Positions 21,709-53,118 of a stretch of 64,000 bases of DNA are shown here, one piece after another; the first letter of the stretch is position 1; every line of letters begins with the position of its first letter. The stretch comes from an uncultured Opitutia bacterium (GTDB lineage Bacteria; Verrucomicrobiota; Verrucomicrobiia; Opitutales; Opitutaceae): positions 1-64,000 of the forward strand of contig CAIMAQ010000062.1 in assembly GCA_903839035.1 (NCBI GenBank), given 5' to 3'. The notes beneath the pieces were generated by a model, which was given only the letters and a program-made list of their open reading frames with translations, was not told the origin of the DNA and did not search any database. A program made the translations under genes and the position numbers.

Positions 21709-21760
21709 ACCCTGCCCGTCACTGGCGAGGCGCGCAATCGTTTCGTCCCCGATCCGCTCC

Positions 21761-21863
21761 CCGGGCCCATGTAACCTATTGGGTTACATCGTCAGCAAAG
21801 GAGCCATCCAAAGACGCTCCTCTCCCCCGATGGAATGTAACCCAATAGGTTACATGGGCCCGG
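21761..21863. repeat. Paired-palindrome repeat unit 1 (29-base perfect inverted repeat)
   Basis: Arms 21761-21789 and 21835-21863 are perfect reverse complements over 29 bases, with 45 bases between them. Each arm contains a near-perfect 19-base palindrome, TGTAACCTATTGGGTTACA or its complement. The spacer holds a further stem (AGGAGC / GCTCCT). A related pair lies at 58447-58520. It resembles a REP/BIME or MITE-like intergenic element; a double operator is the alternative. Confidence 0.8.
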
Positions 21864-21923
21864 CCGGTTCGCGGCGGTGGATGCTCGCTTGCGGGCGGCG
21901 GCGGGCTTGCTCCTAATCGGCGC

Positions 21924-50691: not shown

Positions 50692-51825
<1,134 letters not shown>

Positions 51826-52140
51826 CCCGCGGACATAGGCGTTGCGGGCGGAAATGACAGTTTTTTCCGGCAGGGCGGCCCGCGAATCACGCGAATGGAC
51901 GCGAATTATTCCAGACCCGATACTTTGACTGCAAAAAGGCACATAGTCTCCACAGCTTCGTGTCAGCTCTTCCGCGAGCCCATAGGCCCGAGGGAGACAA
52001 TGCGGCCGGCCGGGAATCCTTGCGCTTTTGAGGCCAGACTTCGGAGTTTTGTTCGCGCCCATTCGCGTGATTCGCGGGAAACCTCAGAAAAATTACGGCT
52101 GGCTGATTGCTTACGGATACTGGAAGGCTTTGTTCATCTC
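51826..52140. other. Non-coding gap between rlmN and the aldo/keto reductase gene
   Basis: A 315-base stretch holding a 200-base inverted-repeat element (51879-52078) and the start regions of two divergent genes. Frames run open through it on both strands but show no protein-like sequence. No clear promoter motif is visible. Confidence 0.6.
51879..52078. repeat. MITE-like element with 27-base terminal inverted repeats
   Basis: Arms 51879-51905 and 52052-52078 are reverse complements at 26 of 27 bases, separated by 146 bases. Each arm is built of 9-10-base units containing GCGAAT (or ATTCGC). No transposase-like frame is inside. Similar ATTCGCG-type repeats are, to my knowledge, common in Verrucomicrobiota genomes. 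Confidence 0.75.
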
Positions 52141-53118
52141 ATGCACTACCGCGCCCTCGGCTCCAGCGATGTGAAGGTTTCGGAGGTCAGCCTCGGCTGC
52201 TGGACGATGGGCGGGCTCAACTGGGTCAACGGCACGCCCAACGGTTGGGCCAATGTGAACGAGGATGAGATCACCACGGCGATCAAACGGGCGGTGGATG
52301 CGGGCGTGAACCACTTCGACAACGCCGATGTTTACGGCAACGGGAAGGCCGAGCTCATGCTGGCGCGGGCGCTAAAGCGGCTCGGGCTCAAGTCCACGGA
52401 GTTCGTCATCGCGACCAAGGTCGGACACTTTCCCGGCACCGCCGCCCAGGCCTACGACCCTCTTCACATCCGCCATCAGTGCGAGCAGTCGCTGCAAAAC
52501 CTGCGGCGCGACTACATTGACCTCTACTACCTGCATCACGGCGACTTCGGGCCAAAAGGCGAGTGGCTGCAGGGAGCGGCGGACACGCTCAACGCCCTTG
52601 TGCGCGAGGGGAAGATCCGGCTGAAAGGCCAGAGCGCGTACAGCGAGGAGCATTTTGTGCGCGCGGTGCCGGTCGTGAAACCTGCGGTGCTGCAGTCGTG
52701 GGCCAATGCGCTCGCGCGCGATTTCATCAAGCCGGGCGGCGTGGTGCCGAAGCTTCTCGCCGAGCACAAGATGTCCTATGTCGCATTCAGCCCGCTCGCG
52801 CAGGGACTGTTGCTCGACAAGTTTGATCCGGCCAAGCCGCCGGAGTTTGAGGAGGGCGATCATCGCAAAAAGAGCGGCCGGTTCACCACGGAGAAACTCC
52901 TCGCGCTGAAACCCAAGCTCACCCAGCTCAAGGCGCGCTTTGGATCCACGACCGAGGATTTGTCCGCGGTGGCGCAGCGTTACCTGCTTAATCAACCCAA
53001 CCTGGCCTGCGTGATCCCGGGCTTCCGCAATGAGCGCCAGGTGGTTTGCAACCTTGCGGCGGTCAATCGCGAGCTGAGCGCGGCCGACATGGCGTTCATC
53101 GAGCAAACGCTGGGCTGA
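52141..53118 (+). CDS. Aldo/keto reductase
   Basis: Cytoplasmic NADPH-dependent oxidoreductase, 325 residues, TIM-barrel fold. Catalytic residues are visible: Asp and Tyr in FDNADVYGNGKAE, Lys in IATKVGHFPG, His in YYLHHGD. The start ATG at 52141 gives MHYRALGSSDVKVSEVSLGC, the family opening; the open frame upstream is repeat DNA and an rlmN shadow. The substrate is unknown. It ends seven bases before the next gene, so the two may form an operon. Confidence 0.92.
   Translation: MHYRALGSSDVKVSEVSLGCWTMGGLNWVNGTPNGWANVNEDEITTAIKRAVDAGVNHFDNADVYGNGKAELMLARALKRLGLKSTEFVIATKVGHFPGTAAQAYDPLHIRHQCEQSLQNLRRDYIDLYYLHHGDFGPKGEWLQGAADTLNALVREGKIRLKGQSAYSEEHFVRAVPVVKPAVLQSWANALARDFIKPGGVVPKLLAEHKMSYVAFSPLAQGLLLDKFDPAKPPEFEEGDHRKKSGRFTTEKLLALKPKLTQLKARFGSTTEDLSAVAQRYLLNQPNLACVIPGFRNERQVVCNLAAVNRELSAADMAFIEQTLG

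Follow-up and report, generated by a model that had tools for sequence, protein, structure and literature searches.

The window analysed here, a stretch of 64,000 nt from an uncultured Opitutia bacterium, contains a 200-base element bounded by inverted repeats. It lies between two genes that are presumably rlmN and an aldo/keto reductase, names that follow the first-pass annotation rather than a family search. The locus contains the following features.

50692–51825, minus strand: rlmN-like gene, probable GTG start at 51825–51823, inferred from an alignment of relatives
51845–51872 (about), minus strand: block upstream of rlmN, TGACAG..TTTTT on the plus strand, shared by 8 aligned genomes, whether or not they carry the element
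51879–51906, plus strand: left arm; outer CC, then three CGCGAAT units at 51881–51887, 51890–51896 and 51900–51906
51907–52050, no strand: spacer of 144 nt between the unit arrays
52051–52078, minus strand: right arm, an inverted array; innermost unit CGCGAAC, two CGCGAAT units, GG
52141–53118, plus strand: aldo/keto reductase-like gene, ATG start

The first-pass annotation had described a 200-base element with 27-base inverted ends made of GCGAAT-type units, and the element was located to the base. Its arms (51879–51905 and 52052–52078) pair at 26 of 27 positions (96% complementary) across 146 nt, and each consists of three CGCGAAT-type units, so that both ends carry the inverted three-unit array that characterizes the GxxExxY elements proposed below. 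In each arm the units are spaced by 2 and 3 nt, and those of the left arm are bordered by GCC-type outer bases. A unit scan of the window detected three-unit arrays only in these two arms (the reversed window gives 1). When folded, the 200 nt form a long hairpin, more stable than all 200 shuffles (z of −7.2 as RNA and −5.6 as DNA). Between 51000 and 53500, no Rfam family was found except for one sub-threshold match outside the element. The only other inverted repeat in the window (27 nt, at most one mismatch, span up to 330 nt) lies at 21760–21864; its arms of about 31 nt are each palindromic (ATGTAACC-TATT-GGGTTACAT) and resemble paired REP hairpins, and its core was not found in any other sequence stretch examined.

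The element is short, has terminal inverted repeats and contains no gene of its own, as expected of a MITE. The earlier statement that its 146 inner bases lack a coding frame holds in this sense only, as two long frames cross the element open: that of rlmN (ORF 50692–52062, minus strand), up to an ATG within the right arm, and that of the reductase (ORF 51301–53118, plus strand), both extensions of the neighbouring genes. The 144-nt spacer is too short for a GxxExxY gene, which makes this a gene-less copy.

Both gene starts lie close to the element, as had been noted: the likely rlmN start at 53 nt and the reductase ATG, at 52141, at 62 nt. The further suggestion that the element carries or disrupts both promoters found no support, with 0 sigma-70-like sites in 51750–52250 and an rlmN-side block that is conserved irrespective of the element. 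This block is a possible leader or promoter of rlmN, and its conservation in genomes of both kinds suggests that the rlmN leader is intact.

Copies in the source genome and its relatives

The source genome is a draft, MAG-like assembly of 3.39 Mb in 126 contigs. When it was searched with the 200 nt, only the arms matched elsewhere; the spacer did not. The search for further arms proposed by the first-pass annotation yielded 53 exact tandem pairs of the CGCGAAT unit, compared with 0 for a backwards control. Among the arms read, 38 of 50 formed inverted pairs, giving 19 pairs and 12 lone arms; these counts cover the stretches read, and a further pair on contig C50 falls outside them. Seventeen of the 19 pairs are gene-less, with inner gaps of 17–51 nt and overall lengths of 55–93 nt. 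The other two are the window element (gap of 144 nt) and a copy with a gap of 387 nt at C79:85640–86080, which encloses a 130-codon GxxExxY gene matched by both TIGR04256 and PF13366. This is the only gene in the fully read 387-nt copy, and no transposase is recognisable in it. Like a MITE, the element is thus multicopy at unrelated genome sites; we call it MITE-like and do not file it as a MITE, because its ends are common to GxxExxY-bearing elements without a recognisable transposase.

The arms fall into two subtypes. Subtype A has AAC as its outer bases; subtype B, to which the window element belongs, has GCC there and a first spacing of 2 nt. The carrier of the CGCGAAT unit in the source genome (L074) has subtype A arms, and subtype B carriers were found only in congeners. 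One of these, genome G009, contains a 475-nt GxxExxY-bearing element whose left arm equals that of the window at 25 of 28 positions and shares its 2/3 spacing and its outer GCC. Another, G002, which resembles the window at rlmN (95% over 111 nt), has another GxxExxY gene between subtype B arms. Arms of the subtype found in the window therefore surround a GxxExxY gene within the genus. A different class of GxxExxY arms, GTGGAA/CTCAGGAA, was observed at L433, L434, L414 and L422 (L083-type; G004, G008 and G011), so the unit code is wider than CRCNNAN.

The rlmN–reductase site is polymorphic within the genus. G005 has the same copy (93% identity over 1301 nt), and G009 has a related copy with different spacer content. 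G002 retains a short remnant, CCCGCG-CCATCCGCGG, which we read as a probable deletion between the arms. G011, G010 and G007 lack the element, and G006 holds other sequence. With further copies in the genome and this polymorphism, the MITE-like reading of the first pass gained support; the opposite picture, of no other copies and a region fully conserved in relatives, was not what we found. The spacer of the G009 copy (L082) contains another dispersed-looking repeat (gagattgtcatgctgaacgaag... / ...attcttcgctccgctcaaaatgac), which suggests a nested insertion.

Other sites vary in the same way. The gene-bearing copy between two genes taken from their sequences to be argG-like and argF-like is found in the source genome and G002 and is missing from G005, G009 and G011. 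Four gene-less copies are each missing from one relative, in a comparison that aligned 5 of 14 sites (those with one continuous match in a relative); the G002 site at C46 is near-empty, with about 25 nt of other sequence remaining. Beyond the genus, a GxxExxY gene flanked by CGCGAAG-type arms separates fabD from fabG in Sphingomonas parapaucimobilis; at the same position, S. paeninsulae has about 30 nt. Movement itself was not seen in these comparisons, in which the relatives' intergenic sequences have diverged too far for junctions to be read.

GxxExxY genes between inverted arrays

The idea that GxxExxY genes are seated between such arrays was put to the test. All 4 of 4 GxxExxY genes of the source genome lie between inverted arrays of 30–32 nt that are 84–93% complementary, each with another unit. 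One of them, L073 (C69:6524–6868), is a pseudogene with an internal TAG stop whose inverted arrays are still intact. For comparison, 0 of 2 Y1 transposase genes and 1 of 4 TIGR02436 genes in this genome had an array, the latter weak and of another kind. TIGR02436 four-helix genes were rejected as carriers, with flanks at just that one gene, of a weak AGATGGG type. This gene, L076 on contig C39, sits between inverted flanks at 1346–1365 and 1858–1877 and perhaps represents a parallel system with another protein.

Linkage was scored as the best inverted match between the left and right flanks, with a threshold of at least 14. Within the bacterial family, 28 of 33 loci reached this score; among the controls, displaced flanks did so in 2 of 130 cases and mismatched pairs, which sometimes score well because unit types recur, in 215 of 1056. 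Across phyla, in the best 80 of 458 confirmed relatives from GTDB species genomes, the score was reached by 63 of 79 loci, by displaced pairs in 1 of 377 cases and by mismatched pairs in 94 of 1520; one locus, L160, was left out because its flank at a contig end is too short. In the genus (43 matches, from which two fragments were unscored and L426 was dropped), it was reached by 33 of 40 scored genes and 0 of 79 displaced controls. Below 14 fell 16 of the 79 cross-phylum loci (best 80 of 458) and 5 of the 33 family loci. Going by record titles, the best 80 of 458 come from Planctomycetota, Bacteroidetes, Chloroflexi, Acidobacteria, several proteobacterial classes, spirochaetes, Cloacimonadota and Verrucomicrobia, among others.

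A strict scan of 1.10 Mb around these 80 loci (best of 458) detected 183 three-unit arrays, compared with 4 in the reversed sequence; 103 lay beside the gene and 80 elsewhere. With a looser unit scan, 142 of 193 loci had both arms, 31 one arm and 20 no array. Correctly oriented arrays were found in 157 left flanks and in 158 right flanks, wrongly oriented ones in 37 and 38. The left and right units were exactly identical at 101 of the 142 loci, compared with 8.9% of mismatched pairs, and 25 unit types were found. The family and cross-phylum sets overlap in at least three genes (L181/L111, L183/L112 and L204/L226), and after removal of two identical genes both arms were present at 141 of 191 loci, with identical units at 100 of 141. 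The linkage between gene and arrays is well supported.

GxxExxY genes are present in 129 of 150 genomes of the bacterial family. A single query returned 8 of 72,556 plasmid records and 0 of 50,697 phage records, and this rarity on plasmids and absence from phage records suggest that GxxExxY has a chromosomal lifestyle.

The protein (TIGR04256/PF13366, PDDEXK_3) has roughly 120–130 residues. For one member from Opitutaceae, the AlphaFold2 model (pLDDT 95) shows a PD-(D/E)XK fold. Its best match by Foldseek and VIA is SSO0001 (4ic1; VIA Z 9.7, rmsd 4.3, 100 aligned), which we take to be a Cas4; restriction-type enzymes and Hjc resolvases come next, at Z 6–8 (1gef Hjc, Z 7.0). No Foldseek E-value was below 0.001, and the fold class is clear whereas the subclass is not. 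A search by sequence returned no solved structure for the family. D67, E77 and K79 occur unchanged in all 42 sequences compared, giving the D...E-x-K motif. The predicted model and these residues fit a nuclease in general rather than one kind of cut. No stand-alone PD-(D/E)XK hydrolase is known to transpose DNA.

The protein and its unit go together. When each of 139 intact genes was compared with its closest protein in a different genome, the unit was exactly the same in 60% of cases versus 9% expected, and in 32% when neighbours were kept below 70% identity; within the bacterial family the values were 72% and 12%. By comparison, only 3 of 36 pairs of GxxExxY genes from the same genome had a common unit. 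Four genes with stops (L073, L155, L197 and L203) were left out of the protein tests. The last base of the unit correlates with residues lying at a distance from the arms, namely L or F in the GLLE/GFLE motif, S or K before YE, and T or N close to the C-terminal third. Plain orthology explains part of the match, because 46 of 106 nearest pairs have flank homology; of the 60 without detected homology, 22 have a common unit.

Arrays are also more numerous where the gene is. The two-unit pattern had 8525 matches in the 150 family genomes versus 1402 for the control, and the median excess per Mb rose with gene number: it was 1.9 in the 21 genomes without a gene, then 3.0, 6.1 and 10.0, and 13.7 in the 35 genomes with at least six. 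Array density and gene number correlated with a rho of 0.54 (control, 0.04), in genomes and genes that are phylogenetically non-independent, so that permutation and rank p-values are too small. The arms of the genes themselves contribute 0.23 matches each (113 loci); after their removal rho was 0.53 and, in the worst case of four matches removed per gene, 0.25. At 16 loci, solo units equalled the unit of the gene at a rate of 0.34 versus 0.10 when permuted (P = 0.003, kinship ignored). Six array-rich genomes were sampled at five overlapping loci each, supplemented by listed strings for G030 and G080. The commonest sampled solo unit was that of a gene in G030, G032, G083 (a tie) and G150; in G106 the gene-matching solo unit ranked just third, and in the G080 sample it was not found. 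G150 shows an extreme expansion of solo arrays, with 694 two-unit matches versus 11 for the control in 6.8 Mb and three GxxExxY matches.

Origin and proposed working of the element

Target-site duplications, which the first-pass annotation had proposed to look for, were sought and none were found: no fixed direct repeat lies beside the 138 gene-bearing and 53 solo elements. The best combinations of offset and length gave 4 matches versus 0.2 expected and 10 versus 3, which is ordinary among thousands of such cells. The outer flanks show a weak inverted extension, TTTAAC...GTTAAA. Because a fixed duplication is missing from these 138 and 53 elements, standard DDE integration is disfavoured. The same finding would fit a route via single strands or host repair, which is a guess.

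We propose, with a probability of about 0.68, that these 200 nt are a gene-less and non-autonomous copy from a family of small mobile elements, whose full-length copies hold GxxExxY as their single gene between two inverted arrays. The elements would work as follows. The unit arrays are most likely the recognition sites, and the GxxExxY protein would bind the arrays at either end of the element that encodes it. With three units in tandem at each end and the ends inverted, cooperative binding and pairing would be possible, and the paired arms may join the element ends as a hairpin, as a cruciform or by protein contact. The nuclease would then cut or nick at the paired ends, and host replication or repair would place a copy of the element in another intergenic region. 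The protein would also act in trans on gene-less copies whose arms match. We infer mobilisation by the GxxExxY nuclease, as well as DNA binding, cutting, the route of movement and any present mobility of the window copy.

An ordinary MITE would account for the short length, the inverted ends, the many gene-less copies and their presence or absence at given sites. It would be served by the DDE transposase of an unrecognised insertion sequence, with GxxExxY as a passenger, which we judge improbable: no fixed direct repeat accompanies the 138 and 53 elements, GxxExxY is the sole gene of the fully read copy, and the units vary among the genes of one genome yet track the protein. Without any transposition, the arrays could be DNA that GxxExxY binds or that serves a structural or regulatory role (operators, hairpins or RNA-stability elements), with copies arising by recombination and drift. 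Binding alone also predicts the protein–unit match and the array dosage, and the hairpin is strong. However, whole blocks of gene plus arms are present or absent at the same place among relatives, such as that between fabD and fabG in Sphingomonas parapaucimobilis as opposed to the short sequence in S. paeninsulae, and nearest pairs without detected flank homology have a common unit in 22 of 60 cases; this alternative therefore seems to us unlikely.

That the element is a REPIN moved by a RAYT (Y1) transposase is very improbable. Size and inverted pairing are similar and the genome has two Y1 transposase genes, but neither of the 2 has such arms nearby, and the arms contain no GTAG or CTAC and consist of tandem units, not of one imperfect palindrome; the RAYT link was rejected. 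Chance or an assembly artefact might be invoked for a draft of 126 contigs with some array matches at contig ends; with 0 backwards-control matches and the same copy in G005, 93% identical over 1301 nt, it is already refuted by the copies in relatives.

As a member of the proposed GxxExxY family, the element shares features with several known systems. Like REPIN–RAYT systems (treated in PMC3116915, PMC8266576 and PMC3733652), it forms miniature inverted pairs that are numerous per genome and mostly chromosomal, and on which one small enzyme would act in trans; here no target duplication was found. It differs in that the candidate enzyme has a PD-(D/E)XK fold in place of HUH, the inverted ends enclose the gene, the ends are tandem unit arrays, and several differing sets of gene and ends occur per genome. 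With the MITEs of insertion sequences it shares inverted ends, gene-less copies, high copy number and polymorphic sites; unlike them, it has a gene-bearing relative without a recognisable transposase, and no target duplication was found. Stand-alone homing endonuclease genes, some of the PD-(D/E)XK type, are selfish single nuclease genes that spread by cutting and host repair. The proposed element is similar in that a single small nuclease gene would be the selfish unit and would rely on cutting and host repair, and it differs in its dedicated inverted unit arrays and its numerous gene-less copies with the same ends.

Among open PMC papers, the GxxExxY-linked element, which is widespread in bacteria, is apparently undescribed, and with respect to that literature the novelty lies in the gene–array system and not in the 200 nt alone. 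In that literature, one paper names GxxExxY beside a reverse transcriptase and another as an algal virus gene, and no description of arrays or mobility beside GxxExxY or PF13366 was found.

On a wider scale, we put at roughly even odds that GxxExxY, as a stand-alone PD-(D/E)XK nuclease, mobilises a bacteria-wide class of elements via tandem end arrays, that gene-less copies such as the window element account for much of the hairpin-forming intergenic repeats of CACAGAG/CACGGAT/CGCGAAT type in Verrucomicrobia, Planctomycetes, Bacteroidetes, Chloroflexi and others, and that the protein–unit pairs form a natural recognition code. If so, a protein family of unknown role, present in 129 of 150 genomes of the bacterial family and in many phyla, would gain a function, and the source of a common type of intergenic palindrome in bacteria would be identified. 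The protein–unit pairs (25 unit types at 142 loci) would offer a ready code for the reading of DNA by a small nuclease fold, and the family would provide a simple, testable system for element movement without a known transposase. For the window, what was an unknown 200-base repeat would become a dated, decaying copy with identified relatives.
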